From a virus: a DNA stretch of 64,000 nt. The position numbers were made by a program, and so were the translations under genes. Position 1 is the stretch's first letter. Every line of letters starts with the position of its first letter. The notes beneath the pieces are model-generated. The model was given only the letters and a program-made list of their open reading frames with translations, ran no database searches and was not told where the DNA came from. Location of the stretch: IMG/VR virus record IMGVR_UViG_3300043446_000566, positions 1 to 64,000 of that record; one strand, given 5' to 3'. Positions 2,674-47,303 of this stretch are shown here, in pieces.

Positions 2674-2674
2674 A

Positions 2675-3130
2675 TCAATAGTCCGACACAGTATACTTTC
2701 TTAGTTCAGCAATGATATCATCTCTAATCTTATGAATTGGCTCGACAGCTTCTTGTTCGATGTCGATGAGAATCATCTGCCTACCATCTTTGGTGTAATG
2801 CGGTCTAGTGAGAAACTCAGAAGGATTTACCCTGAATAGCCAACCAGACCACTTATAGCTATGCATAGGAGCAGGAACTGTGATGAAGTATAATTCATCA
2901 ACATTTCTACACTTTCTAAGCTGATTGGATTTAATAGTCAATGCACGTTCTCTGATGAACGGAACTTGCGTCTTGACTTCAACTTTCTTACCGTCGCAAA
3001 TAAGATCTTTCTCAGAATCATACTTATTAATCGATGGCGCTACCTTACGACCTTCGGAGCTAAGATAGCCGATAAGATATTTCTCGCCCATCAGTCCCAT
3101 TTCATTCATCTTGTATTCACGAGTTATCAT
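2675..3130 (-). CDS. PD-(D/E)xK nuclease-like protein between the clamp loader genes
   Basis: A 151-residue protein that I cannot assign to a named T4 gene. It carries a plausible PD-(D/E)xK active site: an Asp in EKDLICDG followed after a short turn by EVKTQ, preceded by a Glu-containing helix (GLMGEKYLIGYL). This layout is typical of Holliday-junction resolvase and restriction-endonuclease-like folds. The start at ATG 3130 overlaps the gp44 stop as ATGA, implying translational coupling to the clamp loader. Its position inside the 44-62 operon suggests a role at replication forks or in host DNA breakdown, which is inference. The rest of the protein (aromatic SYKWSGWLF, basic C-terminus) gives no further clue. 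Confidence 0.6.
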   Translation of the reverse strand: MITREYKMNEMGLMGEKYLIGYLSSEGRKVAPSINKYDSEKDLICDGKKVEVKTQVPFIRERALTIKSNQLRKCRNVDELYFITVPAPMHSYKWSGWLFRVNPSEFLTRPHYTKDGRQMILIDIEQEAVEPIHKIRDDIIAELRKYTVSDY

Positions 3131-4062
3131 GAGAACTTGCACTCCACCATCATTTCGGTCAAACACGCAACGAGATTCAACTCTTGATCTGCGACAAAAG
3201 CAGCTTGATATTGATACCTAGCAAGAATAATCACTGCATTTGGAATCGTAGACTTGTCCATCACATCATACAGACTGTCATAGATCTTGCGGAAGATACG
3301 CACTGGATCTTCAGAGCCATTCTCTGCGACCCACTTACGCATTGCACCGAAATCTTGATTCTTCAAAGAGGTGACAAGTTCATTGATCGTGACATCAGCA
3401 ACACTCTTTAGAATGCCGACATCAATCTTGCCACTGACCGAATAGCGCTGGAGTTCGTTTAGAACACGACGATAATCGGGGAAGTGCTTCTTTACTACTT
3501 CAACCAGCACTGCCTTATCAAATGGAACTTTCTCAGCATTAAGAATCTCTGCTGCACGTTTCATAAACAAAGCAGCCATCTTCGGCTTGTCTTCTTTACG
3601 CAGCTTGAATTCAATCACAGCACAGCGACTATGAAGAGGCTCAATGATGCGATTCTTATAGTTGCAAGTCATGATGAACGTGCAATTATGCGCAAACTCT
3701 TCCATAGCCGCGCGCATAGCTGGCTGGGTACTATTGGGATTTAGATAATCTGCCTCATCGATGATGATGACTTTCTTACCGCCATCAAGCGACATTGAAC
3801 TTGCATAGTTCTTGATTTTGACTCTGAAAGTATCAATGCCTGACTCATCAGAGCCGTTGATCATCAAATAATCGCAGCCAATCTCATCACACAAAGCACG
3901 AGCAACTGTAGTCTTACCTGTGCCTGGACCACCGCAAAGCAGAAGATGTGGAATCTCTTTGCGATTCACATAGCTTTGAAAAGTAGTCTTGTACTCCTCA
4001 GGAAGAATACAATCAGCAATAACATGAGGACGATATTTTTCAACCCACAAGGATTCATTCAT
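3127..4062 (-). CDS. 44: Clamp loader large subunit (gp44), AAA+ ATPase
   Basis: ATPase of the clamp loader; uses ATP to load the gp45 ring at primer-template junctions. The 311-residue length matches the family. Motifs: N-terminal WVEKYRP, Walker A GGPGTGKT at 44-51, Walker B IIIDEAD ending at 105, sensor 1 TCN at 132-134, and the SRC arginine-finger motif at 145-147, followed by the lid and C-terminal collar domains. It starts at ATG 4062 with overlapping downstream coupling to 2675-3130. The upstream neighbour is a Tat-signal protein rather than gp45, so the T4 clamp/loader gene order is interrupted here. Confidence 0.95.
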   Translation of the reverse strand: MNESLWVEKYRPHVIADCILPEEYKTTFQSYVNRKEIPHLLLCGGPGTGKTTVARALCDEIGCDYLMINGSDESGIDTFRVKIKNYASSMSLDGGKKVIIIDEADYLNPNSTQPAMRAAMEEFAHNCTFIMTCNYKNRIIEPLHSRCAVIEFKLRKEDKPKMAALFMKRAAEILNAEKVPFDKAVLVEVVKKHFPDYRRVLNELQRYSVSGKIDVGILKSVADVTINELVTSLKNQDFGAMRKWVAENGSEDPVRIFRKIYDSLYDVMDKSTIPNAVIILARYQYQAAFVADQELNLVACLTEMMVECKFS

Positions 4063-4077
4063 AATATAAACTCCAAA

Positions 4078-4401
4078 TCAAGCAGTTACTATTCTAGCCC
4101 ATTTCCCGTTCTGTTTCAAGTACAAATTTCCGTCTGGACCGACAGTCATATTTACTCGAACATCTTTGCGAGTGCCTGGAGCAAATGTACCTGTTCCTAT
4201 AATCGCACATGGGTGATGGTTGAGGTCTGGTGGCATCGGATCGCCATATGTTGCATGAAGCGCTAATGTACTGTTGTATCCAGAGGCTTCAATTTTCTTG
4301 ACTGCTTCCGATGCTTCACTTCTACTCGGTAGAATAGAAGGCATAACAGCAGCGCCAGCACCAAAACCTAAAGCCTGAAAGAATTTTCTTCGAGTCGTCA
4401 T
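4078..4401 (-). CDS. Small protein with a twin-arginine (Tat) signal peptide
   Basis: A 107-residue protein of unknown function with a textbook Tat signal: TTRRKFFQ at residues 2-9, a hydrophobic ALGFGAGAAVMP segment, then a Ser/Ala-rich region with possible cleavage near SEA. The mature part of about 75 residues includes GDPMPPDLNHHPCAIIG, ending in VGPDGNLYLKQNGKWARI, which looks like a compact beta fold. Tat export implies folding in the cytoplasm and delivery to the periplasm through the host TatABC machinery. The start is ATG 4401 with GGAG 10 bases upstream. A structured element (4426-4496) precedes it. Phage proteins with Tat signals are uncommon; a host-modifying or exclusion role is only a guess. 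Confidence 0.8.
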   Translation of the reverse strand: MTTRRKFFQALGFGAGAAVMPSILPSRSEASEAVKKIEASGYNSTLALHATYGDPMPPDLNHHPCAIIGTGTFAPGTRKDVRVNMTVGPDGNLYLKQNGKWARIVTA

Positions 4402-4425
4402 ATCAATTACTCCATAATGAAAAGA

Positions 4426-4496
4426 TGGGGCGGGGAAGGTGAACTCCCACGGCGAGCAGTCTGGCGGAGTGTGCCGTCAAAAGAAATTGCGCCCCA
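4426..4496 (-). other. 71-base GC-rich structured element (terminator-like or tRNA-like)
   Basis: On the minus strand a perfect 7-bp closing stem (TGGGGCG at 4496-4490 with CGCCCCA at 4432-4426) encloses two inner helices: ACGGC/GCCGT, and GGGA/TCCC with an AGTTCACC-like loop. TCTTTT follows the closing stem. The size and closing stem are tRNA-like, but there is no D-arm, no normal 7-base anticodon loop and no CCA. A terminator or a small structured RNA or leader for the Tat-signal gene is equally possible. Confidence 0.4.
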
Positions 4497-4502
4497 ATAA
4501 GA

Positions 4503-4661
4503 TTATTTAGCCTTTTTAGCCTCAAAATATTTTTTGGCAAGATTAATATATCGGTTCATCGTCTCCTCATGCGCAAGGCACTCTTTATTCCATAAAGAAT
4601 TCAAGGTATCTACCGCTTTCTCCAATTCAGCAATTCTCTCTTTATATTGATTTTCCGACAT
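4503..4661 (-). CDS. Short coiled-coil protein
   Basis: A 52-residue protein starting MSENQYKERIAELEKAV, chosen because AAGGA lies 8 bases before ATG 4661. Almost the whole chain is predicted amphipathic helix (heptads in ERIAELEKAVDTLN), with a basic C-terminus AKKYFEAKKAK. It is followed by the structured element at 4426-4496. I do not recognise it. The position between the DsbA-like gene and gp44 suggests an accessory of the replication or late-transcription operon. Confidence 0.6.
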   Translation of the reverse strand: MSENQYKERIAELEKAVDTLNSLWNKECLAHEETMNRYINLAKKYFEAKKAK

Positions 4662-4677
4662 TTTGTAATCCTTGTTG

Positions 4678-4917
4678 TTACTTCGCCACTTTCTCGTAAA
4701 TCTCAACAAAATCATTTTGCTCTGCAACTTCTTCCTCAAAGTTGCGCTTGTGATACACTCTAGCCAGCTTTCGACCTAGCTTCTTTGGAATCTCAGTCTC
4801 ATCTTGCATACGCTCAAGAATTTCTTTGATCAGATCTCGCTCTGACTCGATTCGAGTTAGCGAGTTAGAAATCTCAGAAAGCATCCCAAGGATCTTGGCT
4901 TTATCAGTAGGTGACAT
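4678..4917 (-). CDS. dsbA: DsbA-like double-stranded DNA-binding / late transcription protein
   Basis: A 79-residue protein whose C-terminal half (KKLGRKLARVYHKRNFEEEV, then a segment ending in IYEKV) matches the pattern of T4 DsbA, where LLALYHKDNRDVF is followed by ELYDTV. T4 DsbA binds double-stranded DNA and affects late transcription. The N-terminal half is helical (EISNSLTRIESERDLIKEIL). The start ATG 4917 has GGAG upstream and sits 3 bases after the gp45 stop, so it is co-expressed with the clamp, which itself acts in late transcription. The assignment rests on motif memory and context. Confidence 0.7.
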   Translation of the reverse strand: MSPTDKAKILGMLSEISNSLTRIESERDLIKEILERMQDETEIPKKLGRKLARVYHKRNFEEEVAEQNDFVEIYEKVAK

Positions 4918-4919
4918 AA

Positions 4920-5594
4920 TTATTCTCCAAAAGTAGACAGCGTAGACTCAATCGCGATGATGTATGTAATGGGTATGTTCTTATGCTTGAACTGTGCGCC
5001 CTTCTTTGTGATTGTGACATCATATGAGCCATCCATCATCTTGATGTTTTCTGTTTTCATTACGACGCAAAATTTCGTGCCGTCACCAGCACCAATTTCA
5101 ATCTTAGACTGATCAGCAGCATCATCTGATGGATCAGTCGCAATGAAATTGATTACATCGCCATCACTTTCAAAAATAAAGTATGGCGAGTTTGAAATGC
5201 CAGCAGATTTCTTCATCCACTCAAGATCATCTTCCGATAGAAGAAAAGAACAGTATGTTTCACCAAGTGAGATACTCTTATCAGGAGCAACGGCGATTAC
5301 TTGCGGTGAACAATATTTGATATTGTCCAGCTTCTTCTTGTTCTCAGTAGCGATGATGATTCTATCATCATCGAAAGACAGATCAGCACCATTGTACAGA
5401 GAAACCTTTGCAAGAAACTTGTTTAGGTCATACAATGCAAACTCTTTTGTAAGAGTTTCAGTGATCGTAGCCTCAGCGAAGATAGTCTTCAAAGGCGAAA
5501 TAGTTCGCAGAGTATTACCAGTCTTGAATTGAAGACTTTGATTGATTGTTGAAAAGTTTTTCAACACATTGATAGTAGCATCAGACAATTTCAT
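4920..5594 (-). CDS. 45: DNA polymerase sliding clamp (gp45)
   Basis: Homotrimeric ring that tethers the replicative polymerase and also activates late promoters together with gp55. The 224-residue length equals T4 gp45 (228). Recognisable features are the start MKLSDATINVLKNFSTIN, the two-domain PCNA-like pattern and a C-terminal ITYIIAIES strand. The first 14 bases overlap the end of the dNMP kinase gene, so the two are translationally coupled. It heads the clamp / DsbA / clamp loader / RegA block as in T4. Confidence 0.93.
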   Translation of the reverse strand: MKLSDATINVLKNFSTINQSLQFKTGNTLRTISPLKTIFAEATITETLTKEFALYDLNKFLAKVSLYNGADLSFDDDRIIIATENKKKLDNIKYCSPQVIAVAPDKSISLGETYCSFLLSEDDLEWMKKSAGISNSPYFIFESDGDVINFIATDPSDDAADQSKIEIGAGDGTKFCVVMKTENIKMMDGSYDVTITKKGAQFKHKNIPITYIIAIESTLSTFGE

Positions 5595-6252
5595 GATTTA
5601 TTTCCTCATTCGCTTCAACATGAACATTATTATGCACGGTTTTCGCTAGACTGTCAACTACAGTAGCCAAGTCATCTAGCGAACCATTATTTGTAATTGT
5701 AGCATCATACTCACAGCCAATCCATGCCCATTCACTGTAATGAACGTCTGGATATTTTTCAGCCATTCCGTAATAGTCTCGCTTAGAATTTACATTCAAA
5801 GCAGTTTCATACCATTCAGGATCTGGACCTCTACGCACACGAACAATCATGCCGCCTGCGTTTTTAATCGCATTGATTTCGTTTGGAAATCTAACATCAG
5901 CAATAACATAATTATTCCAAGACGATAATTCACAACGACGCATTGTTGTATAGACCCAGATGTCTTGGTGAAAGACATCACGCCCTGCTTCAGTGCCCAT
6001 TAGCTGAAGTGCAAGTCTTGGTGTAAAAGACTTGCCCATCTTTTCAGACCAATAGATATCTGGCTGTTCGCGCCATGTACGAGAGTCTGCTGTATCGCCT
6101 TCAAGAAGAGCGCGATTCCAACCAAAGATGATTGAAACCGCGTCCTTCACACTGTTAGCAAAACTTTCCTTGAAATAGCCATGTCTATCTACAAGAATGT
6201 CTGCGACACTGCCTTTGCCGCTGCCGATTTGACCAACAAGTCCAATAATCAC
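5581..6252 (-). CDS. 1: Deoxynucleoside monophosphate kinase (gp1-like)
   Basis: P-loop kinase that phosphorylates dNMPs to dNDPs for DNA synthesis; in T4 the enzyme also accepts hydroxymethyl-dCMP. Walker A is GQIGSGKGS at residues 7-15. Further family features are RLALQLMGTEAGRDVF around 80-95 and VIADVRFPNE around 117-126. It starts with GTG at 6252, with AAGG about 9 bases before it. The 223-residue length fits T4 gp1 (241). It lies directly downstream of two glycosyltransferase-like genes, which is worth noting if this phage carries a modified base. Confidence 0.88.
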   Translation of the reverse strand: MIIGLVGQIGSGKGSVADILVDRHGYFKESFANSVKDAVSIIFGWNRALLEGDTADSRTWREQPDIYWSEKMGKSFTPRLALQLMGTEAGRDVFHQDIWVYTTMRRCELSSWNNYVIADVRFPNEINAIKNAGGMIVRVRRGPDPEWYETALNVNSKRDYYGMAEKYPDVHYSEWAWIGCEYDATITNNGSLDDLATVVDSLAKTVHNNVHVEANEEINHEIV

Positions 6253-7081: not shown

Positions 7082-8014
7082 TCAATCTCCTACCATAATA
7101 CCCTGTGGTGTAACATCATCAGCAGAAGAAAGTGTAACCAACTTCATGCCGTACTCATTGGTGCCTTTAGGTAAAACGACACCCTTTTTCAACTTCAGCT
7201 TATTCTTCTTGAATGGAGTATAGTCAACATAGTGATGCCAACGACCATACTTCCAAACAATCTGTGCAACATCTGGATGCATATCTACCAGCATCTGGGA
7301 CTTGTTGATAGTACCAGCAGCATGATATTGACCCAGCTTGACCTCTTCAGCATTTTCTACAAACTCTTTGTGATAGAATTCGTCTGTATTGCCACCCTTT
7401 ACTGTTTGAGTCGCAGACTTGCCTTGCATGAATGCATTGAACTGCACAGTGCAATCTCCGTCTTTCAGAACACGCAAACAGATATCAGTATCTTCATTGT
7501 ATCTACCACGCCAGCGATGCTTGCAATCATTACGAATCAACAGACACGAATAGATGCGAGTGTTTGTAACGTATGGCGGATATTTCTGGTTAGGAGCAAT
7601 GAAGAATCGATATTGAGGTCCAGCAATATATAGGTTTTCATATCGATCAAAAAAGTCTTCCATGACTTTGAAGAAGACACCAGACTCTACACGAATACGA
7701 TCATTGCGATTCAGTCGATAGAAGTCTGTAATATTGTCATCAAGAACCCAGTGCGCTTTAGCACCGATGCTGATCGAATGGTCCCATGCCCAGTTTCGAG
7801 CGCGACCAGGACCATCGCCGTGATTAGAAAACGGTGCAACAAGAAGCGTTACACCACGAAGTTGAAATTCAACAATAGCTTTTTCATACAATTCTTTGTC
7901 TTGAGGCTCAATAATAATATAATGAGGTATATTCATTCGAGACAATGATCGAGAAGTCAGCATTGATTCATGCCGACCCTTTGATACGATATAGACTGGA
8001 TAAGTAGGGTTCAT
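7082..8014 (-). CDS. TAGT-type (TET-associated) glycosyltransferase
   Basis: A 310-residue protein with the signature order of the TET/JBP-associated glycosyltransferase group of phage base-hypermodification systems: YIVSKGR at 8-14, GPGRARNWAW at 68-77, WVLDDNITDFYRLNRN at 89-104 (DD as the metal-binding acid pair), and RWRGRYNEDTDICLRVLKDG at 167-186, followed by KGGNTDE and the C-terminal YGRWHHYVDYTPFK. Known family members are thought to transfer sugars to hydroxymethylated pyrimidines in phage DNA. ATG 8014 overlaps the stop of 8011-8592 as ATGA, so the two proteins are made together. No TET/JBP oxygenase is present in this window. The family assignment is from memory. Confidence 0.7.
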   Translation of the reverse strand: MNPTYPVYIVSKGRHESMLTSRSLSRMNIPHYIIIEPQDKELYEKAIVEFQLRGVTLLVAPFSNHGDGPGRARNWAWDHSISIGAKAHWVLDDNITDFYRLNRNDRIRVESGVFFKVMEDFFDRYENLYIAGPQYRFFIAPNQKYPPYVTNTRIYSCLLIRNDCKHRWRGRYNEDTDICLRVLKDGDCTVQFNAFMQGKSATQTVKGGNTDEFYHKEFVENAEEVKLGQYHAAGTINKSQMLVDMHPDVAQIVWKYGRWHHYVDYTPFKKNKLKLKKGVVLPKGTNEYGMKLVTLSSADDVTPQGIMVGD

Positions 8015-34586: not shown

Positions 34587-35261
34587 TTATTTAGCTAGTT
34601 CATAATCTTCAGCATAATAATCTCGGACTTTAGCCTCAAGATCAGATGTAATGATCGCCGTCAGTTTGCGGCTTTCGTTGATCCTAGGGATCTGAATGTC
34701 TGCTGGAGCACCAAATTCAATCGCAACAGTCTTCAGACTGCTTTCAAAATTCGTGAAAGGCAAAATAACCAGCTTCTCTGCGGGTATGTGTCTGTACCAG
34801 AAAGCCTGCTGTCTAAGCACAAGGTTATTAGTCTTCAGTGTATGATCTTCAAAAATCTGTTCTGGTGTGATGTTTGCCGCAAAACTCAGACAGTCTTGGA
34901 TCACGTTATCTGGAATTTCTGGCAATATTGTTTCTGGAGAGCCGTCTGAATAAGCTGACAAGTCTATGCCTGTGAACCAGTTTGGCTTGAACTTGATGAG
35001 AAACTTGATGTAGTTTGGGCTTCGAAAGTGATTCGCACCAGAGATGAATCGCTCGACTGGATCTCTCCAGAAGACGTAGTATTTCTCAATCACAGACGGA
35101 TCAAAGTTATCAATTTTTCGAGAGCATTGATACAGCATTCTGCCATAATCGGCATGCTCTTCAAGAAATATGCTATACGGAGCAAGCACATTTTTTGTCG
35201 TTCGAGTTCCTGTTTTTGTAGGACACACGAACACAAGTTTATGATCTTTAGAGATAATCAT
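34587..35261 (-). CDS. Sulfotransferase-like enzyme
   Basis: A 224-residue protein with the two PAPS-binding signatures of the sulfotransferase superfamily: PTKTGTRTT at 14-22 (5'-phosphosulfate loop, with the Lys-Thr-Gly-Thr core) and VFWRDPVERFISG at 63-75 (3'-phosphate site Arg and Ser). It would transfer sulfate from PAPS to an unknown acceptor, perhaps a glycan or protein. ATG 35261 overlaps the stop of 35258-35776 as ATGA, and the gene lies between fibre-associated genes and gp13, in the late region. A second, diverged enzyme of this type is at 42497-43150. The sulfate acceptor cannot be told from sequence. Confidence 0.75.
   Translation of the reverse strand: MIISKDHKLVFVCPTKTGTRTTKNVLAPYSIFLEEHADYGRMLYQCSRKIDNFDPSVIEKYYVFWRDPVERFISGANHFRSPNYIKFLIKFKPNWFTGIDLSAYSDGSPETILPEIPDNVIQDCLSFAANITPEQIFEDHTLKTNNLVLRQQAFWYRHIPAEKLVILPFTNFESSLKTVAIEFGAPADIQIPRINESRKLTAIITSDLEAKVRDYYAEDYELAK
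34588..34595 (-). promoter_or_regulatory. Late promoter variant GCTAAATA
   Basis: Minus-strand GCTAAATA overlapping the stop codon of the sulfotransferase-like gene and 26 bases upstream of gp13. The same stop-codon-embedded arrangement occurs at 1318-1325 and 42494-42501. Confidence 0.6.
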
Positions 35262-35776
35262 GAGAACTTCATATATTGATATCCGCTGGATGGAAGACCG
35301 ATCAGACCGCTCCAAGTCCAATATGCGTAACCGCCGCTATAAGAATATGTCGCTGCTGAAGCATTGTATGTGCTTCCAGTCTGTCTTTTGATCGATGTGA
35401 AATATCCAGTCGCACCAGGGCTTGACGAAAAGCCTGATATGCTAAGTTGAAAATTGTTGGTACCACCTGCTACAGAATCGTAGATGTAGTACAGAGTCTT
35501 GCCGTCTGGAAACGTCGTTTGACCTAATGCGCCAAAGTTGCTTTGTGAATATCCATACAGCTGAAGATATGCCGTTCCATAAGTGGTATAATACGCTTGA
35601 TATCCGCAATCAATTCTGAATGATCCGCGAAGATCATTCATAGAGATTTGACCCGTAGAAATCCCTGCTAGGTTTCTGGGACCACTATCGTTTAGACCGA
35701 TAGATGCTGTCCCAGAAAGACCTAGTTCAAGATTTACTCTGTTTAGATCTGCGCTACCAGTTATTGATAACGGCAT
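35258..35776 (-). CDS. Virion/tail-fibre-associated protein
   Basis: A 172-residue protein. The N-terminal 55 residues (PLSITGSADLNRVNLELGLS, then STGQISMNDLRGSFRID) are a short module that I recall from phage tail proteins, including the S-x-x-DLRG element. The remainder is Gly/Ser/Tyr-rich (AYYTTYGTAYLQLYGYSQSN) and looks like a beta-rich receptor-binding or fibre-tip domain. It is coupled to the sulfotransferase-like gene by a 4-base overlap. A structural role is inferred from composition and context only. Confidence 0.6.
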   Translation of the reverse strand: MPLSITGSADLNRVNLELGLSGTASIGLNDSGPRNLAGISTGQISMNDLRGSFRIDCGYQAYYTTYGTAYLQLYGYSQSNFGALGQTTFPDGKTLYYIYDSVAGGTNNFQLSISGFSSSPGATGYFTSIKRQTGSTYNASAATYSYSGGYAYWTWSGLIGLPSSGYQYMKFS

Positions 35777-35782
35777 TGCTTT

Positions 35783-35980
35783 TTACTGCTGCTGAGGTGA
35801 TCCGATCTGAGCCTGTGCTTGACCGAAGACTTTCTTCAACACAGGATCTGCGACTCTGTGTGGAAGTTCCTGAAGCGCACCAAGAATAACATTCAATTCA
35901 TTGATTGTCACTTCAAGTTTCACACCTTGCTCAGCTGGTGACTGAGGCTGTGCTAGCTTATCTAATTGTTCATTTGCCAT
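35783..35980 (-). CDS. Small conserved helical virion-region protein
   Basis: A 65-residue protein starting MANEQLDKLAQPQSPAEQGV. The core VTINELNVILGALQELPHRV, followed by ADPVLKKVFGQAQAQI, is an amphipathic helical hairpin that recurs in phages next to tail genes. ATG 35980 is chosen because GGAG lies 9 bases upstream; earlier ATGs at 35986 and 35995 are too close to it or precede it. Its role is unknown. It sits between two fibre-associated genes and may be a chaperone or assembly factor. Confidence 0.6.
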   Translation of the reverse strand: MANEQLDKLAQPQSPAEQGVKLEVTINELNVILGALQELPHRVADPVLKKVFGQAQAQIGSPQQQ

Positions 35981-35994
35981 ATTCATAATCTCCA

Positions 35995-36369
35995 TCAAAC
36001 AGGTGGTGTTGTATTTGCTGTATTGGCTGTGTTAGCCCAAGGTAGAGAGTTTGAATCCACTTCAATGATTGGATTCTTCTTCCCATCGATTTGCTTTTGA
36101 ATCTGTTCGTCGATGTGTTGTTTGTATCCACCAACGACAATAGCTTTGATCCATGAAAGAACAGCGTCTTCAGTCAGTTCTTCATAAGTCACAAATCCAT
36201 CTCCGTTCACATCTTCAGCCCTAAACGGTGTTGCGCCATGAAACGTGCCAGAGTTGCCGTCTGCGTCAGTTCCAGTGCATTCCCATTGTGTGCCTACGAT
36301 GAGGTCTGAGTATTGATTCGTGCTAGTCTTTTTGAGACTCTTTAGCTTCCAAGTATAAGTCAATGACAT
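35995..36369 (-). CDS. Conserved virion-associated protein with an EF-hand-like loop
   Basis: A 124-residue protein of a family I recall near T4-like fibre genes (N-terminal TYTWKLKSLKKTSTNQYSDL, then WECTGTDADGN, a LTEDAVLSWIK helix and a Pro-rich tail). Residues around 52-64 read EDVNGDGFVTYEE, which has the D-x-N-x-D-G-x-x-x-x-x-E spacing of a calcium-binding EF-hand or dockerin loop. The function is unknown. An ACTAAATA octamer lies 42 bases upstream within the end of the giant fibre gene. Confidence 0.6.
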   Translation of the reverse strand: MSLTYTWKLKSLKKTSTNQYSDLIVGTQWECTGTDADGNSGTFHGATPFRAEDVNGDGFVTYEELTEDAVLSWIKAIVVGGYKQHIDEQIQKQIDGKKNPIIEVDSNSLPWANTANTANTTPPV

Positions 36370-36378
36370 TGTATGTCC

Positions 36379-39300
36379 TCAAATGATGCTGGACAGTCTT
36401 CCAACGATAGTATTTAGTTGTTCCTTCAGAGTTTCTATTTGCGACTGCTGCTCTTTGATTGCTTCGATGAGAAGTCCGACCATGTTGCCATACTGTACAC
36501 CATACTCATCGACATCTGCGGCATATGTGACAGCTTCTGGCAATACTTGTTCAACTTCTTGAGCGATGACACCAATCTGACGAGTCTTATTCTCATCATC
36601 AATCTTATTATAATACACGCCGCGAAGACTGTTGACTTTATTCAATGCGTTATCAACTGTGACAATATTCTCTTTCTTTCTTCTGTCAGAATACGCAACG
36701 ATATTACCTGTTGAGTAGATACCGCCGCTGACATACAAGTAATAAGAAGATGATGTGGTCGATGAGCCGACGCCCATGCAGTTATTAGCGACATTATGGT
36801 AAAGATACCAACGACTGTTTGCTTCACGATATACACCACCGTTACCAGCAGAGTCATACATGAATCCATTGACGCCACTGTATACGTCATAGATGCCACC
36901 ATAGGAATTCTTACTTCCGCCAATTCTCCATGGCGTGTAAGTGCCACTAGAGTTATATCCAAAATATATAGACGTATCGGCGCTGTAGTAAAGAATTGGA
37001 GTACGAAGTGAGCCATCCGCTTGCAGCGAGTTGTTTACATAGACGTTGCCACCACCAAGCGGATCACTGCCGTTATTGACCGACATGACCTGTGTGCCCA
37101 TGTCATAGTCAGTGTAAAATTTTACACCTTGATAACTTGCATTGGCACCAATTTTAATACCAGTATGAAACGCGATACGAAGATCTGGATACGGATGAGT
37201 CCATGCTCCTGACTCACGATAGATTGCATAAGCGGTGCTAAGCCCACTATCAAAGTACATTCCAAATGGATGGTCAGTGCTTACAGCATAGTTGTTTGAT
37301 AGGTAGTATGTGTTGAGTCTGTAGAGGATTGACGTACTGTTTCCATCTATGTAATAACCAGTGTTATCTTGATCATAGAAAATACCCGAACGGAACGACG
37401 AGCCGTTGTAGGCGTATCCGTCTAGCAAATAAAGTGGATTGTGGTAGTTATTATTTGAACTGTTCGGTGTAATAAAGCGCACACCATTACGGAACATAAC
37501 CTCGACACCAGTACCGTTGAAGTTACCGCTCAGATTAGCAATAGGATCTACGTTGAAGCATGGAGTGATATTGCCCGACGTATCACCAAACACAACAGCG
37601 CCATAGGTCGTGCTATACCCATAATAAGAGCCGTAAAAGGCTTTCCAGTTTATGTTGGCAGAGTTTCGTACAAAGAATGTGCCCACAACAGAAGCTGAAG
37701 TAGGGTCGACATAGTACGCGGTGTTGTTACTGTCGTAGAAGATAGGGGCGCGAGAAGACGCGTATGATGTTGTATTACCACTGTTGTCAATGATGAATGC
37801 ATTTATAGTGTCGGCGCTATTATTAAAGCGATAACCATATGATGGTGTTCCTTTGGCATATGAGCTATCACCAGCCCAATTTTGAACACCGTACCAGTTA
37901 ACAGAGGTTAAAATTGATGTACCATTTGGATCAACATAGTACGAGGTGTTGTCATAGTCGTAGAAAATGCGGCTTCTGACGCTGCTCTCGCCCACAACGT
38001 ACTGATCGCAATATAGAATTTTACTGCCATATGTGCGCACATACGTCGAGTCAGCCATATACCAGCCGCCGCCATATGACTCAAAATAAAATCCGCTAGT
38101 TCCAGAAACTCTGACCCATCCACCGTTGGCATAAATGTCGCCTTTGACATGCAACTTATAAGATGGATTAGAAGCACTAAAATTACCAATACCGACGTTA
38201 TTACTATACATCATCATTCCGTCAGTCGGAAGTGTTGTAGTATTTTCGCCATCGTATCCAGTAGCAAAGAATAATTTTCCTAGCGCATTCGCCGCATACA
38301 TTCTAAGTTCAGCGTTACTGCTATCATATTGACGAATACCGCAGCGCCAACCAGTGCTTGAACCAAACGTGATTAGACCATCGTATGCACCTTTTTCCAT
38401 TGCGAGTTTGCCATAAAAGATGCTAGTTCCGGCTGGATTGCAGTAGTAAGCAGTATTGTCACTATCATAAAACAGTGGTGCGCGGAAATCTGATGTAGCG
38501 TATCCTGTTCCTCCGACATGCAACGCATAAGAAGCAAAGTTGTCGCCGCCAGTAGCAACCCTAAGATTGCCACTACTATCAACAGTCATTACTCCTAAAT
38601 CGCTGCTGTTTCTCCAAACAAAATTAGCGCCTGTTCCATAGTATGTGGTGCTACCTGAAGCAAAATAAAATCTTGCTCGCCCTTCAGATGATGTGTGCCA
38701 AACCCCTGTAGCGGGATTGAGGTTGTTTATCGTAGAAACAGTCAACGCATTTATAACAGATGTGCTAGCAGGATCAATATAGTACGCAGTGTTATTGCTG
38801 TCATAGAAAATAGGTGCACGGAAATCTGAACCAGCTGTTCCTGTTCCAAAGACATCGATGTTTCTAGTTGACCCATAAACAGAGAATACTGCGCGACTAT
38901 TCACATAGTCGAAAATCGTGAAGTCTTTATATGTGCCAGCAGCGCCACCCCAATCTAGACCAACAACAGCATATGTTCCGCCAGTGTATGCATCAGCTGT
39001 CTTGAATTTGAGTCTAGCAGCTAAGTTTAGATCACCTGTATTAGTGAATGAAAGATTTGCACTTGTGACTGGAGTTTGATTTGATCCGCTAGCTGCAACA
39101 CCAACAATATAGTTTGTTGCCGCGGAAGCAGCAGATGCATTGATCGCAGTCGATGGACCAGTAGCACCCTGGACACCTTGAGCGCCTTGAACACCCTGCG
39201 CACCAGTCGCACCCTGGACGCCTTGAGCACCTGTTGCACCAGTAGCACCCTGAACACCTTGAGCGCCTGTTGAGCCTGTCGCGCCTTGAGCGCCAGTAGC

Positions 39301-42132
39301 ACCAGTCGCACCCTGCACACCTTGTGCACCAGTCGATCCAGTTGCGCCTTGAACGCCTTGCGCGCCAGTAGATCCTGTAGCACCTTGAACGCCTTGTGAA
39401 CCAGTTGCACCAGTCGCTCCCTGAGCACCAGCAGCACCTTGAATTCCTTGGAAGCCCTGTGAGCCAATCGCGCCTTGAGCGCCAGTAGCACCTTGAACAC
39501 CCTGCGCGCCTTGGACGCCCTGAGCACCCTGTGCGCCAGTTGCACCCTGCGCTCCAGCGGCACCTTGCGCACCAGCGGCACCCTGGACACCTTGTGCTCC
39601 CTGAACACCTTGAGCGCCTTGAACACCCTGCGCACCTTGGAATCCAGCACCATAAGCAATTAGATGCGCATCAAACCAAGACGCGGATGAGGCTCCCTCG
39701 ATAACTTGTGATGTTGGATTACCAGTGTATGCAGTAACTTCAACGTAATCAGTTGAACCATTGAAATATAATGTTGTGTCAATTGTTTGATTCTGAGATA
39801 CGCCAGTATTAGCAACAGGATCATATGTTAGTGTCGATTGAGTAGTGCCATTTTTTCTCAATTGAATATTATGTTGTTGATTGTTTACTGAACCTGCTTG
39901 CCATAATATCTGAACATTGATTTGATAATATCCAGCAATCGTTGGTTGAAACTTGTTTGTTGTGAACCAGTTTTGCGGATCATAGTCGTCAACAAATGTG
40001 ACAACCTGATCTGATCCGTTTGTAATAGTTTGATTTGTTCCACCCTTGACAGCACGAACAACATATGGGCTTGCTGCGAGACTTGATGCTGGACCAGTAG
40101 CACCTTGTACACCTTGATAGCCTTGTGAACCTTGAGCGCCTAAAGCGCCTTGAACGCCTTGCGCTCCCTGTGCGCCAGCAGCACCTTGAACACCTTGAAA
40201 ACCTTGCGCGCCTTGTACGCCTTGAGATCCAGTCGCGCCTGTAGCACCTTGAACACCCTGAGATCCAGTCGTTCCAGTTGCGCCTTGAACACCCTGAGCG
40301 CCTGTCGCGCCCGTAGCGCCTTGTGCACCAGCAGCACCCTGAAATCCTTGAGCGCCGACAGAACCTTGTACACCCTGCGCGCCTTGAGCGCCAGATGATC
40401 CTTGCGCACCAGCAGCACCTTGAACGCCTTGATAGCCTTGTGAACCTTGAACGCCCTGTGCGCCAGTGTCGCCTTTGTCACCAGTTCTTACGAATGTGAT
40501 CGTTGTATTTGTATTATTCGGGAACGTCGCTGTAGAAAGTGTAGAATCAAAACCAGCAATCGGAACACAGAACCATCCGTTAGGATCACCGATATGCGAG
40601 TGATTGCCGATGATACTGAACTGCGCATATTCTAGCACGTTCGCAGTGTTTGAGATTCTAAATGTGCCTTTGACAGCAGATGTAGAATCGTCAATTGTCT
40701 GAAGATAGTTGTAAGTGTTTGCGCCAGTGCTGTCGATATAATCAATATAAAGAGTCGTTGCGCTTAGAAGCGTCGCATTATTGACCTTTAGATTGCCATT
40801 TGATGGATCTGTATTTGCAGTGCTTGTCAAGAAGTTGTAGATGAATGATGCACCGCCGAATGAACCAGTTTCACCCTTGAGTCCTTGCGAACCCTGTGAA
40901 CCTTGAGCGCCAACAGAACCTTGAACACCTTGATAGCCTTGTGAACCTTGAGCGCCTAATGCGCCTTGGACGCCTTGAGCGCCTGTTGATCCAGTAGCAC
41001 CTTGAACGCCTTGAGCACCAGTAGCACCTTGAACGCCTTGAGCACCAGTAGATCCAGTAGCACCAGTTGCGCCTTGAACGCCTTGAATACCTGTTGCGCC
41101 TTGTGCGCCAACGACACCTTGTGAACCTTGGACACCTTGCGAGCCAGTTACACCTTGAAAACCTTGCGAGCCTTGAACGCCTTGAGCGCCAGTTGAGCCT
41201 GTAGCGCCTTGAACGCCTTGATAACCTTGAAAGCCTTGCGCGCCTTGAACCCCTTGAGATCCTACAGCGCCTTGAATGCCTTGCGCACCAGTTGCACCTT
41301 GAACACCCTGAGCACCGATATCGCCTTGAACCCCTTGAGATCCTACAGCGCCTTGCACACCTTGCGCGCCAGTTGCACCTTGAACACCTTGAAAACCTTG
41401 CGAACCTTGAACGCCTTGTGATCCAGTCGCACCTGTAGCACCCTGGACGCCTTGAGCACCTTGAAATCCTTGAACACCTGTAGAACCCTGAACGCCTTGA
41501 TATCCTTGCGATCCTTGAACACCTTGTGCTCCTTGGACGCCTTGCGAGCCTTGAGCGCCTAAAGCACCTTGAACGCCTTGAGCGCCGACAGAGCCTTGTG
41601 CGCCGACTGATCCTTGCGCACCATTAGCGCCTTGGACACCTTGAGCGCCAACAGAACCTTGCACTCCAGCAATACCTTGAGCGCCAGTAGAACCTACTGC
41701 ACCTTGAGAGCCTTGCGCGCCTTGAATGCCTGCTGCACCTTGCGCGCCAAGAACACCTTGCGCGCCTTGAAATCCTTGAGCACCCTGAGAACCTTGTGCT
41801 CCTTGAATGCCTTGATAGCCTTGATATCCCTGCGCGCCTTGAAATCCTTGTGCGCCTTGAACACCTTGATAACCCTGGTAGCCAGAAACGATATTGACTT
41901 TATCGCCGCCGTTGTTCTCGCGAACAGTGATATTTGAACCACCAGCGTTTGTGATGACATTGACTTTATCGCCAGCGCTTTGCTGATCGCGAACTACGAT
42001 GCGACCTTGCTGACCATTTGGACCAGGAGAAACATTGACTTTGTTTCCACCCTGTTCGCGGATCAGAATGTTACTCTTATTCCCAGCGTTTTGAGTCGCT
42101 GAAGAATTATTTGCGCTGACTGAAATTTTCAT
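36379..42132 (-). CDS. Giant collagen-like tail fibre with C1q-like and S74 chaperone domains
   Basis: 1917 residues. The N-terminus (1-83) has three KVN(V/I) repeats with VRExxGGDKVN pattern, probably the virion-attachment part. Collagen-like Gly-x-y blocks follow at about 84-423, 555-680 and 830-992, built mainly from [12 protein letters not shown] and GYQ triplets and nearly free of proline. Between the second and third blocks lies a C1q/TNF-like domain of about 150 residues ([14 protein letters not shown], then [17 protein letters not shown]). The distal part repeats an [14 protein letters not shown]-type motif at least five times. It ends in a peptidase S74 intramolecular chaperone ([24 protein letters not shown]) that trimerises and self-cleaves. 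The host-binding role is inferred. Confidence 0.9.
36411..36418 (-). promoter_or_regulatory. Late promoter variant ACTAAATA
   Basis: Minus-strand ACTAAATA inside the last codons of the giant fibre gene, 42 bases upstream of 35995-36369. Confidence 0.4.
39155..41883 (-). repeat. Collagen-coding triplet repeat tracts
   Basis: Three tracts of 9-base Gly-x-y codon repeats (about 41883-40863, 40475-40090 and 39645-39155) separated by globular domains. The units are near-identical at DNA level (GGN-GTN-CAR, GGN-GCN-CAR, GGN-GCN-ACN), so the tracts are prone to slippage and recombination, and length variation between isolates is expected. Confidence 0.85.
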
Positions 42133-42464
42133 TTAGTGATTTGCGGATACACTGTGATAATGCCTTCGATCACTCTTGAAGTAACATTTGCTGCGTCTTT
42201 CATCTTGACATCGTAGAGATATCTGCCAGCTTTGATGTTAGCTGTAGTCGCCGAATTCATCGACAGAGCAACATTGCCGTTGGCTACGTTGTCGATTGTC
42301 ACAGCTAGATTCGCAGTGACGTTGGCTGAATAGTAAGACTTACGAATAGATGAAGAGAATGTGTAGTTGGCGACGTTGATTACACTTCCATCGTTGTTTG
42401 TCAAATCGATATTGACCGAGAAGTCTGTGCCTTGATCGCAATAAAGTTCAACAAAACTAGCCAT
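42129..42464 (-). CDS. Virion protein with phage beta-sandwich fold (fibre-adjacent)
   Basis: A 111-residue protein: [20 protein letters not shown], then [20 protein letters not shown] and [13 protein letters not shown], ending [15 protein letters not shown]. This layout (quasi-repeated strands, GRYLYD, EGIxTVxP) matches a small structural family found beside fibre or baseplate genes in T4-like cyanophages and myophages. Its start follows a GCTAAATA octamer by 30 bases. The stop overlaps the giant fibre start as ATGA, so it may be a stoichiometric adaptor or attachment partner for the fibre. Confidence 0.7.
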
Positions 42465-42493
42465 TTTTGTACCCTAGAGAGGTTATATTTGAT

Positions 42494-42501
42494 TATTTAG
42501 C
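42494..42501 (-). promoter_or_regulatory. Late promoter variant GCTAAATA
   Basis: Minus-strand GCTAAATA covering the stop of the second sulfotransferase-like gene and 30 bases upstream of the fibre operon start at 42464; likely promoter for the giant fibre. Confidence 0.6.
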
Positions 42502-43150
42502 TAAAGGTAATTCCCTTGCTATTGAAAAAATCATAATCTTCACGGTAGAATTCTTTGATTTTTAGCACATCAGCTTCAGATAGGTCTGTCCTTTTATGCA
42601 ACTTGATTCCTAAATTTTCCCTAGGTATTTTAGATGGCTCTAGATCAAATAGCCTGCAAATTTTTCTAGCCTCGTTGTCGAAATTCCTAAAGTCTAGAAA
42701 TACCGTGTTTGGATTTTGAAACCATTCTTTTTGACTTTGAAAAATGGTGCTTCTATTTTGTCCTAAAGTATCTAAAAACTGTATCGGAGTTATTGAGTCG
42801 ATCTTATTCTTTTGAGTTTCTGTTAGATCCTCATACGTCGCGACAGAAGCGCATGAAAATTCTTCACCATAGAAATGACCTAGCAAATACTTTACAACAG
42901 CAGAAGGATCTCTTCTCTTATGAATCTCACCTCTTGTAGAAGCTAAGACATGGTTGAATGCAGAAACGTATCTTTCAACTGGATCTCTGTAAAAACAATA
43001 AAAAGTATAATCATTTGGCTCTGAAATACTCTTTTCATGTGTGTGAGAATTCAGATCAGCATCTAGATTCTTTAGCAAATTATGTAAAGAAGCGGAGCCA
43101 GTTTTTGGATTATACAGTAGCGCTATTCTCTTTTCTTTATGGAGTAGCAT
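42497..43150 (-). CDS. Second sulfotransferase-like enzyme
   Basis: A 217-residue protein with the 5'-phosphosulfate loop NPKTGSAS at 14-21 and the 3'-phosphate motif FYRDPVERYVSAF at 53-65, the same two PAPS-binding signatures as the enzyme at 34587-35261 but with little other similarity. The C-terminal half is Lys/Arg/Asp-rich and probably forms the acceptor side. The start ATG 43150 overlaps the upstream gene by 14 bases. It is somewhat more A/T-rich than neighbouring fibre genes, suggesting separate acquisition. It lies directly upstream of the giant fibre operon, which hints that the fibre or its receptor is the target, though this is unproven. Confidence 0.75.
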   Translation of the reverse strand: MLLHKEKRIALLYNPKTGSASLHNLLKNLDADLNSHTHEKSISEPNDYTFYCFYRDPVERYVSAFNHVLASTRGEIHKRRDPSAVVKYLLGHFYGEEFSCASVATYEDLTETQKNKIDSITPIQFLDTLGQNRSTIFQSQKEWFQNPNTVFLDFRNFDNEARKICRLFDLEPSKIPRENLGIKLHKRTDLSEADVLKIKEFYREDYDFFNSKGITFS

Positions 43151-43469
43151 TCAGTTTAGCCACATTCTCATTTTGAATTGCGATAATATCAACTTTTGAG
43201 TCGACCCATTGACGAAAATATTTGTTAGATCCAATACCTTGCTCTGAGATTTTCGCATGAGAAATAAAATTTGTCTGAGTAGGTGGATCTAGAACCAATG
43301 TTCCGCTATGATAAACATGAACATGATAGTCACTACCTGGCACCATTCTGCTAGTGTCAGTCGATATAACGTAATAGTTTATGGCTGTATACACATGATC
43401 CTGAATAGCTTCGTTGTATTCAGAACCGACGCTGGGTATATGAAAAATGTGTGTTATGTTATTTGCCAT
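43137..43469 (-). CDS. Fibre-region protein of unknown function
   Basis: A 110-residue protein beginning MANNITHIFHIPSVGSEYNE, with strand-rich DYHVHVYHSGTLVLDPPTQT in the middle and an acidic/Asn C-terminus. There are no known motifs, signal or membrane segment. It lies between the fibre-like gene 43476-44195 and the sulfotransferase, with a 14-base overlap to the latter. I do not recognise the family; a minor virion or assembly protein is likely from position. Confidence 0.55.
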   Translation of the reverse strand: MANNITHIFHIPSVGSEYNEAIQDHVYTAINYYVISTDTSRMVPGSDYHVHVYHSGTLVLDPPTQTNFISHAKISEQGIGSNKYFRQWVDSKVDIIAIQNENVAKLNATP

Positions 43470-43475
43470 TGTATT

Positions 43476-44195
43476 TTACAGAGTGAGCGATACGTTGAAA
43501 TTGCCAGTCCATCCGTTGAACGCCTTCCATGGCGTGTACACTCCGCTACCTAGTGGAAATTCATAGACAGTATAATTACCACCAGAGTTATAACTATTAC
43601 TTGTCGATGAAGCGCGGGTTCTTGTTACACCAAAAACAGTAACCGAAGTCCACCAGTTACCCAATGTCGATGTCGTCACATCGCCAGAAAAAGCTATAGA
43701 AGTGTTTAGTAATGTTGTAACAGAACTTGGCGCAGTGTCTACTTTCCATAAGTCATAGACTGCAATTATGCTGGTGCTTCCACTTCCACTTTTACTTGTT
43801 CCAACAGTAGAGTAAGATCCTATAGTTCCAAATCCAGAGGAAATACCTTGTCCGCTAAACTGTGAACTTGCGAAAGATGTTGTACTTACGCCAAATGCTG
43901 TGTAATAATAACTATGATAGACTGGACCGCCAAAATTAGAAGTCGTAGAACTGTATGTTCCGGAAGTTCCTTGGCCACCAGTCCATGTTGTTCCAGCAGA
44001 ACTATCAAAATTAGAAGATCCACCGATATATTGGCGAATCGTCAATGCTGAAGGATTTGTCGAGATCGATAGATTATTAGAATGCGACGCAACATAACCA
44101 CCACCTCTAACATATGATCTCAGATTCGATGGAGGTGTGCCTCCACCGTATTCTGTTTTGATATCACTCAGCGTAGGAGTAGAACCGATAGTCAT
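43476..44195 (-). CDS. Ser/Gly/Thr-rich fibre-tip-like protein
   Basis: A 239-residue protein. The N-terminus [20 protein letters not shown], followed by PPSNLRSYVRGGGYV, resembles the short module that starts many phage tail-tip proteins. The remainder is a Ser/Gly/Thr/Tyr-rich beta structure (SSTTSNFGGPVYHSYYYTAF) ending in VYTPWKAFNGWTGNFNVSL. Its ATG 44195 forms TAATG with the stop of the 966-residue fibre, so the two are co-translated. It may be the receptor-binding tip or a cap of that fibre. Function is inferred from composition and gene order. Confidence 0.6.
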   Translation of the reverse strand: MTIGSTPTLSDIKTEYGGGTPPSNLRSYVRGGGYVASHSNNLSISTNPSALTIRQYIGGSSNFDSSAGTTWTGGQGTSGTYSSTTSNFGGPVYHSYYYTAFGVSTTSFASSQFSGQGISSGFGTIGSYSTVGTSKSGSGSTSIIAVYDLWKVDTAPSSVTTLLNTSIAFSGDVTTSTLGNWWTSVTVFGVTRTRASSTSNSYNSGGNYTVYEFPLGSGVYTPWKAFNGWTGNFNVSLTL

Positions 44196-47095
44196 TATCT
44201 ATTTTCCAGTTCTTTCACTCTCTTGTCTAGTTCCTTGATAGCTTCAATTAGAACTGGAACAAGTTTATCATAAGAAACTGACAAGTGACCGTCAACCATC
44301 TCTGAAACTGCTGAAGGTAATAGCTGTTGAATTTCTTGAGCGATGACGCCATATTGTAGTCTCTGATCTTTTTCTGGATCAATCCAGCGGAACGAAACAC
44401 CATTGATCGAGTTTACCTTATCAACAGGAGTTTCAATATTTCCGTATACATGCTTTAGTTCAGCGTCTGATGCGGTCGAGAAATCATAGGCATAAACAGT
44501 CGTCGATGACCAGTAAATGCTACTGCAAGCAGCTGCTGTTTGTGAAGAACCAATTCCAGCAACACCTACAAGATAATTTGTTCCAGCTGAAGCAGAGGCA
44601 TTGATCGATGTAGAAGGACCAGCAGCGCCTTGCACACCCTGAGCGCCTGTCGCGCCAGTAGCACCTTGAACGCCTTGAGCACCAGTAGCACCAGCCGCGC
44701 CTTGCACACCTTGAAATCCTTGCGCGCCTGTGCCGCCATTAGTACCAGCAGCACCTTGAACACCTTGGAATCCCTGTGCACCTGTACTGCCGTTGCTACC
44801 AGCTGCACCTTGTACGCCTTGGAATCCTTGAGCACCAGTCGCTCCTGCGGCACCAGCAGAGCCTTGAGCACCCGTTGCGCCAGCAGTGCCTTGAGAACCA
44901 GTCGCACCTTGAGCGCCATTGCTACCAGCAGCGCCTTGAGCACCAGTAGCACCTGTTGCACCAGTCGCGCCTTGTACACCCTGAGCGCCTGTCGCGCCTT
45001 GAACACCTTGTGCGCCAGTAGAACCAGTTGAGCCTGTAGCACCCTGTACGCCTTGGAATCCTTGTGCACCTTGCACACCTTGAAATCCTTGGAATCCTTG
45101 AGCGCCTTGTCTACCTTGTGCACCCTGCACACCTTGTGGACCTAATGCGCCAGGGTTTGAAGTATTCGCTGAGAATGCGAGTCTTGTATTTGAACCAGAT
45201 GTTGAAACTGCTACGTTGATCGAATCAGTATTTGCAACTTCTAGATTCTGCTTATTTGTCACACTGCTTGTATTTGCGTGATACACAGAAACAGTATTTG
45301 CGGCAGTATTCGCAGCACCATAAGCCGCTACAGCGGTATCATATGCTGTCTTTACTGTGCTTCCAGCCGCTGCATCAGTAGTGCTTGTGCTTGTGACTGT
45401 TGTGATAAGATTCTGAGTAGTAAGCAGTGTATAATACGCAAGATTCGCATTACCAGTTGCGCGCCAGACACCAGCAGTTGATGAGAAGAAGATCTCAGAG
45501 TTGCCGTTGGTTCCTGCACGGCGGCTACGGAATGTAGCATCGCCATCACTTACAGCTGAAGCACGAAGAACAAAGGTATTTGAATCTAGTGTAGTAGATC
45601 CTGTAACAACCTGTGTGCCTGTGATTGTCACGTTATTGAATACAGCATTACCTTGGCTGAGGCTATATGTGCCTGCTGTATCAAGGATTATGTTTGTTGC
45701 AGTAGTTCTGCCGTTTAGATTTGCTGTGCCAGTCACAGTCAGATTCTGTGACATGGTTGTATTCTTGCTCACAGCAAGATTAGAAGACAGCGTTGTGTCT
45801 CCAGTCACGCCCAACGTAGTTCCTACAGTCGCAGCACCAGTGATTGTAGCTGAAGCGAGTGTAGCAGCGCCAGAACTGAGTGTTCCTGTTACTGTAGCAT
45901 TCTGCGATACTGTGACGTTCTTGCTCACAGCTAGGTTTGATGATACAGTGGTATTACCAGTTACTGTAAGATTTGCTGATAGCGTTGTGTCGCCAGTCAC
46001 GCCTAGTGTAGTGCCAACAGTTGCAGCACCAGTAATAGTTGCTGAGGCAAGTGTAGCAGCACCAGAATTCAATGTTCCAGTGATTGTAGCATTCTGACTA
46101 ATTGTTGCGTTCTTACTTACAGCTAGATTAGAAGACAGCGTTGTATTAGCTGCTACAGTTAGATTAGCAGATAATGTGGCATTGCCAGTCACGCCTAATG
46201 TGGTACCGACAGTTGCAGCGCCAGTAATAGTAGCTGAGGCAAGTGTAGCAGCACCTGAACTTAGTGTGCCAGTAATCGTTGCGTTTTGGCCAATCGTTGT
46301 ATTTTTGCTTACAGTCAGATTAGAAGATAATGTTGTATTACCTGTGACAGCAAGATTAGATGATAAAGTCGTATCACCAGTCACACCCAGAGTCGTGCCA
46401 ACAGTTGCAGCACCAGTAATAGTAGCTGAGGCAAGCGTAGCAGCACCAGAACTGAGTGTTCCAGTGATCGTCGCATTTTGGCCGACTGTGAGATTGCTTG
46501 TGATAGCGACATTTGAATTCAATGCTGTATTGCCAGTAACAGTAAGCAGACCAGAAAGCGTTGTGTTTTGCGAAACAGCTACGTTAGAGTTTAGTGCTGT
46601 ATTGCCAGTAACCTTTACATCGCCAGTGACGTTTGCTGTTCCTGTGATTGTAGTGTTCTGTGAGATAGTGACGTTCTTTGAAACAGCGACGTTTGAGTAT
46701 AGAAACGTATTACCAGTCACTTCAGCAGTCGATACGACATTCAATGTGCCAGTGACATTGGCATTCTGTGAGATGACTGTGTTCTTAGAAACAGCTAGAT
46801 TTGATGAAAGCGTTGTATTGCCGCCGACTGTAGCTGTGTTACCAACAGAGAGAATAGAAGTTGTTGTCGTGCCACCAATCAGAGCGTCAGAAGCTGCGCC
46901 GATCAGAGTCAGAAGAGTTCCGCTTGTTGATCGCGAAAGAGTGATCGCGCCGTTAGAGATAATGAAGTCGCTATTATCTTTTACGAATGGATGATTTCGT
47001 AGAATGTTTCTGTCAGCAATCAGAGAATTTGTAGCTACGCGCCAATCGTCAAACGTATTAGCGATTTGAATTAGTCCAATATTTACGTTAGCCAT
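44195..47095 (-). CDS. Second tail fibre: tandem beta repeats, collagen-like stretch, S74 chaperone
   Basis: 966 residues. The first 55 residues ([20 protein letters not shown], then [10 protein letters not shown]) form an attachment domain seen in T4-like fibres. Next comes a long tandem array in which units such as [20 protein letters not shown] and [20 protein letters not shown] recur, indicating a beta-helix or beta-roll shaft. A collagen-like Gly-x-y block of about 180 residues follows (around 45150-44610). The C-terminus ([28 protein letters not shown], then [18 protein letters not shown]) is a peptidase S74 chaperone. It has the same overall plan as the giant fibre, but without the C1q-like domain. 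Confidence 0.88.
45780..46700 (-). repeat. Direct repeats encoding the fibre shaft
   Basis: Repeated blocks of about 50-60 codons ([20 protein letters not shown] and its neighbours) occur four times with high DNA similarity. They encode the beta-repeat shaft of the 966-residue fibre and are probable sites of recombination or repeat-number change. Confidence 0.75.
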
Positions 47096-47096
47096 T

Positions 47097-47303
47097 TTAT
47101 CCTCTGTTCAAAATCTGCTGTAGCATATTTTTGATTTCTAAGACGTCCGATTTTATCTTATTTATTTCGGCATCTCTTAGTTGATTTTCTCTATGCTTTT
47201 GAAGTTCGTTTTGATACTTGCTTACTTCAGTTACATCCGTACACAAAACCGCCATGTTAGTAGCGTCTCTAGCGTATTTTGTGCCCTCAATCTTGTACTT
47301 CAT
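47097..47303 (-). CDS. Small coiled-coil virion-region protein
   Basis: A 68-residue protein beginning [20 protein letters not shown] and ending in a coiled-coil-like helix [19 protein letters not shown]. The ATG overlaps the stop of 47303-50209 by one base (TGATG). It sits between a giant baseplate protein and the second fibre. I recall similar small proteins here in T4-like relatives but no function. A trimerising or connector role is possible from the helix. Confidence 0.55.

Follow-up and report, generated by a model that had tools for sequence, protein, structure and literature searches.

The main new finding of this analysis is the genomic context of a pair of sulfotransferase genes, which form the last cistrons of fibre/tip units in a marine phage genome, an arrangement that recurs in unrelated phages. 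The two genes, designated STa and STb (ST, sulfotransferase), lie in a window of 64,000 bases that is part of an 84,247-base IMG/VR virus record (IMGVR_UViG_3300043446_000566), and as judged from sequence and modelled fold their products are very likely PAPS sulfotransferases. The late region of the record is T4-like, from a marine virus of bacteria, and its terminase is nearest to those of Methylophilales phage Melnitz and cyanophages (~49% identity). The observed context suggests that phages may add sulfate to the fibres with which they bind receptors, or to the surface to which these fibres attach.

Gene order and putative late promoters

An initial annotation of this stretch had described two sulfotransferase-like ORFs, and both are present and intact on the minus strand (Table 1), with the PAPS loop and the RDPVER(F/Y) motif it had reported (TKTGT and WRDPVERF in STa, PKTGS and YRDPVERY in STb). 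Its description of the pair as bracketing the collagen fibre genes applies to the 1917-aa fibre but not to the second collagen-bearing fibre of 966 aa, which lies outside the bracket.

In transcription order, the STb unit runs from the 966-aa fibre through the 239-aa tip and the 110-aa protein to STb, and downstream are GCTAAATA on the STb stop codon, the fibre-assembly gene, the 1917-aa collagen fibre and a late-promoter-like site. The STa unit is made up of the DUF7936 gene, a small ORF, the Tyr-rich tip and STa, followed by GCTAAATA and the gp13-like gene, and the tip stop and the STa start share 4 nt (ATGA). The label 'tip' rests on position after a fibre gene, composition and a shared N-terminal module. 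The N-terminal module of the 172-aa tip is common to the tips upstream of prophage STs (E down to 2.5e-7) and also occurs in Vibrio phage proteins encoded just after the tail-fibre gene, including phage MS02, where it directly follows the tail fibre and no ST is annotated. By eye, the C-terminus of the 1917-aa fibre resembles the S74-type chaperone ends of its relatives, and a homologue of the fibre-assembly gene also follows the ST in locus L062. Homologues of the 110-aa protein precede the STs of L056 and L061; these small proteins, possibly fibre chaperones, form a family encoded upstream of and overlapping STs (window 43137-43469, L056:5901-6128, L061:7658-7972).

The late octamer noted earlier beside each ST was recovered as GCTAAATA, which sits on the stop codon of STa and of STb, while the exact T4 octamer TATAAATA is absent at these two sites. 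On the minus strand, 11 of 25 TAAATA sites fall 15-70 nt upstream of a gene start, compared with 5% of positions (P ~1e-8, with base-composition bias ignored), and the plus strand holds one site. Gene order, combined with this concentration of TAAATA before gene starts, indicates that each ST closes its own predicted fibre/tip unit and that a new putative late promoter serves the gene after it.

Table 1. Sulfotransferase genes, neighbouring fibre/tip genes and late-promoter-like sites in the window
Feature	Coordinates	Strand
Late-promoter-like GCTAAATA on STa stop codon, 26 nt upstream of gp13-like gene	34588..34595	-
STa, predicted 224-aa Sulfotransfer_2-like enzyme, clade A; last cistron before gp13-like gene	34587..35261	-
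172-aa Tyr/Ser/Gly-rich fibre-tip protein	35258..35776	-
Small ORF (MANEQLDK...) between DUF7936 gene and tip gene	35783..35980	-
DUF7936 / phrog_7802 protein, fibre region	35995..36369	-
Late-promoter-like ACTAAATA ahead of DUF7936-tip-STa unit	36411..36418	-
1917-aa collagen-like fibre, GxQ repeats	36379..42132	-
phrog_1084/phrog_3304 gene, L-shaped tail fibre assembly	42129..42464	-
Late-promoter-like GCTAAATA on STb stop codon, 30 nt upstream of next gene	42494..42501	-
STb, predicted 217-aa Sulfotransfer_2 enzyme, clade B; last cistron of fibre-2/tip unit	42497..43150	-
110-aa small protein, possibly fibre chaperone; 14-nt overlap with STb	43137..43469	-
239-aa Gly/Ser-rich tip protein, STb unit	43476..44195	-
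966-aa collagen-bearing fibre, head of STb unit	44195..47095	-
Late-promoter-like AATAAATA ahead of fibre-2/tip/STb unit	47159..47166	-

Family membership, conserved residues and predicted fold

STb clears the 22-bit cut-off for PF03567 (Sulfotransfer_2; 30.3 bits, E 6e-7), and STa scores below it (E 0.055, 14 bits), yet is a full-length homologue of STb (E 1e-13; 61/240 identical, 25%). Because this alignment spans the whole length of both proteins, the statement that they share little beyond the two motifs was too strong. PF03567 is matched by 13 of the 24 ST family members, STb included. STb also matches phrog_3347 (E 3.8e-8), whose cyanophage members score 1e-55 to 1e-99, making STb a distant relative; STa does not match that profile.

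Single-sequence searches for related loci returned just L002 (the same phage) and L003, with nothing in genome contigs. A tblastn search of STa, STb and the STs of L003, L011 and L031 against 50,697 phage records found none, and sequence searches of the PDB gave no convincing match. Relatives were recovered by degenerate DNA-pattern scans for F-x-RDPVER-[FY] and DY-[DE]-[FL]-F-x-[ST]-KGI-x-F, and profile searches confirmed the motif-recovered STs to be one family. The residues F53, R55, P57, S63, Q140 and N179 (STb numbering) are invariant in the 24 aligned members, among which the first R and the S of the 3'-phosphate motif (R..P..R..S) do not vary. The PAPS-loop Gly is near-invariant in both alignments (24 and 21 members) and the PAPS-loop Lys in the 21-member alignment. 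A near-invariant His (STa H36, STb H38) stands between the two PAPS motifs, at the place expected for its presumed role. In carbohydrate sulfotransferases these positions bind PAPS and include the likely catalytic base.

AlphaFold models of STa and STb (pLDDT 89-90) place sulfotransferases at the top of the PDB fold matches (ranks 1-8 for STb and 1-4 for STa), though these matches are weak (E 0.008-0.02, TM <= ~0.42). Among viral structures in BFVD the top fold match is to a protein annotated as a phage sulfotransferase (E 3e-9, TM 0.67), and other viral matches include ACG-2014f and SIO1 gp5.1, both below E 1e-3, and P-SSM7 at 2e-3.

Recurrence in other phages

The relatives found by motif follow a fibre, tip or fibre-chaperone gene in sphingomonad prophages and in ~10 other T4-like contigs, a hand count of locus groups of which some are close relatives of each other. 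All of the ST-bearing T4-like records are metagenomic fragments, with up to three STs per phage. A tip, fibre or small chaperone-like gene immediately precedes STs in the window, L015, L011/L023, L013, L045/L061, L047, L056 and L048, and the two genes overlap by 1-20 nt or are 2-15 nt apart. The L015 locus reads collagen/S74 fibre, assembly gene, tip, an STa orthologue (joined by ATGA) and gp13..gp17, while L047 consists of an S74 fibre and an ST, and L056 of a tip, a 75-aa small protein, an ST, an S74 fibre and gp13. Two or three STs are strung with tip genes beside giant GIQ collagen fibres in L011, L023 and L013. Strings with tip and small genes hold three STs each in L011 and L061; in the latter, from the genome of L045, the order is small chaperone-like protein, ST, tip, ST, 99-aa protein, ST and gp13.

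Additional enzymes join the STs at several loci. In L048/L053 the order is tip, 247-aa protein, ST, 2OG oxygenase and DUF6065, and in L042 and L062 a Gly-rich/collagen-like tip is followed by a DUF6065-like protein, a 2OG oxygenase and the ST, after which come a GT4-type enzyme (L042) or a fibre-assembly gene (L062). L003 holds the same gene set as L042 and L062 before gp13, plus a further glycosyltransferase and a DUF6445 protein. In L003, L042 and L062 the STs thus have 2OG oxygenases as neighbours, along with glycosyltransferases or DUF6065 proteins, next to fibre or gp13-like genes, and such a combination would be suited to step-wise modification. Across L003, L042, L048 and L062, STs and fibre genes repeatedly adjoin 2OG-Fe(II) oxygenases and proteins of the DUF6065 or DUF6065-like type.

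Outside the T4-like records, sphingomonad prophages carry an S74 fibre, a 463-aa beta-propeller tip and an ST 3 nt behind the tip. In a sample of 299 sphingomonad genomes there were three strong-scoring family members, all three directly behind the 463-aa tip, and the weaker chromosomal sulfotransferases whose context was viewed lie away from fibres. The cultured roseophage SIO1 has the order tail fibre, tip, tail-fibre-assembly protein and ST-like gp5.1, with a 4-nt overlap. Three ST contexts have no fibre link: the L018 ST is in an apparently non-coding-rich region, the L052 ST is among nucleotide metabolism genes, and the third is that of L014. The L014 region (2429-6053) has a sulfotransferase together with an APS kinase, a CysN/CysD-like fusion and a GT11 glycosyltransferase, as though the phage supplied its own PAPS to sulfate glycans.

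Two further observations concern the architecture of these loci. At L019:2051-2689 an ST gene has an S74 fibre-chaperone end in place of its own C-terminus, and a second tip start comes after it; this is a recombination product of fibre, tip and ST modules, as if the three had moved as one module. Some ST-adjacent tips have a Hint-like (self-cleaving) C-terminal domain, with a Pfam Hint match at L011:2194-3069 and, by eye, a resemblance at L011:10259-11956 (minus strand) and possibly at L061:7982-8815.

Clades and selection

In a maximum-likelihood tree the ST family consists of two deep clades (support 100/99). Clade A contains STa, its L015 orthologue, the gp13-proximal STs of L023/L013, the L018 ST and the sphingomonad prophage STs, and clade B contains STb and the STs of L003, L042, L047, L048, L056, L057, L011, L045 and L052. 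Both clades co-occur in the window phage, the L011/L023 phage type and L013, thus STa and STb are not a recent duplication, as the initial annotation had held, and the tree rules that origin out. Purifying selection acts on the prophage STs (dN/dS mostly 0.11-0.18, with one closer pair at 0.34), and one T4-like ST pair gave a dN/dS of 0.07; these low ratios imply that the genes are maintained.

The acceptor and competing explanations

Given that unrelated phages couple STs to tip genes, modification of the tip or fibre during assembly is the likeliest task of the enzymes, and we tentatively favor, at somewhat under an even chance, a late fibre-maturation enzyme that would sulfate the fibre tip, the fibre or a glycan on it. 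The STs would be produced late, from the final cistron of a fibre-tip(-chaperone) transcription unit and in translational coupling with it. During folding of fibre and tip they would take sulfate from host PAPS and transfer it to the tip/fibre complex, where a sugar carried by the complex is the most likely acceptor and a side chain the alternative. Sulfation would alter the charge and binding of the adsorption surface; here we infer the catalytic activity of the STs, their acceptor and their effect on adsorption. Phage-made PAPS was rejected as a general route, as neither the window record nor eight other ST phage records hold an APS kinase, which was found only alongside the L014 ST.

Enzymes of PF03567 with a known acceptor act on sugars, and the hydroxylase and glycosyltransferase neighbours in several relatives would fit a sugar on the fibre; in the window there is no obvious fibre glycosyltransferase. 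The first interpretation of this region stands in its sulfotransferase identity and in the fibre-region link, which recurs in unrelated phages with translational overlaps, and is weakened in its proposal of Tyr sulfation. Tyrosine content in ST-linked tip proteins ranges from 2 to 14%, with 0-2 tyrosines per tip in acidic context, which is inconsistent with tyrosine sulfation as the single explanation and leaves tyrosine a weakly supported candidate acceptor. With more reserve, we consider it plausible that tip-specific STs travel with the tip as a cassette, by which phages would sulfate their own receptor-binding tips post-translationally, and that in some of them hydroxylases and glycosyltransferases join to form a virion glycan-sulfation pathway.

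Several observations count against fibre maturation: tips with the same module occur without an annotated ST, the three contexts above are not fibre-linked, the PDB fold matches are weak, and the end of the tail operon in prophages is a usual slot for cargo genes too. The STs of ACG-2014f lie in nucleotide-sugar/glycosyltransferase clusters, and glycans outside the virion are therefore possible acceptors. The main rival, which we regard as rather unlikely, holds that host surface glycans (LPS, capsule or exopolysaccharide) are what the STs sulfate, such that progeny or lysogens escape trapping or re-infection via the receptor and the gene travels with the tip as tip and receptor change together. 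Host-glycan sulfation would likewise make linkage of an ST to a receptor-binding gene useful, and it agrees with the sugar acceptors known for PF03567, with the nucleotide-sugar epimerases and glycosyltransferases around the ACG-2014f ST, with the APS kinase, CysN/CysD-like fusion and GT11 glycosyltransferase that accompany the L014 ST, and with the prophage STs that end the tail operon, which resemble serotype-conversion genes near P22-type tailspike genes. However, the tight translational coupling to tip and chaperone genes, late expression and apparently lytic lifestyle of the T4-like phages argue against it, as do the 2OG hydroxylases of the same cluster, which do not fit LPS modification, and the occurrence in one phage of several STs that are mostly linked to a tip or chaperone of their own.

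It is improbable that the STs are auxiliary metabolic cargo that sulfates small molecules, with the fibre region merely a permissive landing site. Phage sulfotransferases have been listed as auxiliary genes of unclear function (PMC10580990, PMC8290583) and the STs of L018 and L052 lie outside fibre regions, but the position behind tip genes recurs across unrelated phages and clades, with start/stop codon overlaps with the preceding genes. Even less probable is non-catalytic reuse of the fold as a fibre chaperone or structural part of the tip: STs do occupy the fibre-chaperone position (in SIO1, directly after the tail-fibre-assembly gene), but diverse members retain the Lys, Gly, Arg and Ser of the PAPS site as well as the His between the motifs.

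The window also encodes, at 7082-8014 on the minus strand, a TET-associated glycosyltransferase (TAGT; PF20691, E 3e-45; phrog_842, beta-glucosyl-HMC-alpha-glucosyltransferase) near a dNMP kinase and a sliding clamp, which suggests that the DNA bases of this phage may be glycosylated. A role of the STs in DNA hypermodification is very improbable despite this base glycosyltransferase and kinase and the glycosyltransferase- and sulfotransferase-based nucleotide modification systems reported in phages (PMC10829341), as the STs are ~27 and 34 kb from the TAGT gene, inside fibre units, and no linkage of STs to TAGT genes was seen in the window or in the other ST-bearing records searched. Searches of nine further virus records with an ST, most of them fragments, and of the complete genome of SIO1 found no TAGT gene.

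Relation to known systems

The members of PF03567 are carbohydrate sulfotransferases such as heparan sulfate 2-O-sulfotransferase, with which the STs share the 5' PAPS-loop Lys, the RDPxERxxS 3'-phosphate motif and the His between them. Unlike typical PF03567 enzymes, the STs are short (190-250 aa), phage-borne and fibre-linked, match solved structures weakly and, for STa, score below the family cut-off. Phage sulfotransferases are already annotated (phrog_3347; ACG-2014f; P-SSM7). Distant homology links the STs to PHROG 3347 of cyanophages ACG-2014f and P-SSM7 (STb E 4e-8, L015 6e-5, L011 2e-7), whose name, 'Galactose-3-O-sulfotransferase', rests on annotation, but none of the cyanophage members checked lies behind a tip: they belong to a glycan-synthesis cluster or follow gp5, the baseplate hub gene. 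SIO1 gp5.1 resembles STb in predicted fold (E 1e-3, TM 0.58/0.66), in its motifs (PKTAT...HTHEP...RNPHDWIKSYY) and in the order fibre, tip, assembly protein, ST; unlike STb, it comes from a podovirus, has no Pfam or PHROG match and is assigned by motif and predicted fold only. Receptor-modifying conversion genes such as P22 gtrABC, usually of temperate phages, also place a surface-modifying enzyme near a receptor-binding gene, but these are different enzymes without translational coupling to a tip gene.

The role of phage sulfotransferases has been called unclear (PMC10580990). In the literature searched, which lacks most subscription journals, no description of a recurrent ST coupling with fibre tips was found, and queries on sulfotransferases with tail fibers, or on tyrosine sulfation, in phages returned nothing relevant. 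The linkage of STs and tips in unrelated phages, including the ST-like gene of the sequenced isolate SIO1, poses a directly testable question: whether sulfate is present on the virion or on the host surface. If the fibre-maturation reading is true, sulfation of the virion would give phages a novel means of tuning adsorption, and the annotation and engineering of phage fibres would have to consider the linked enzyme.
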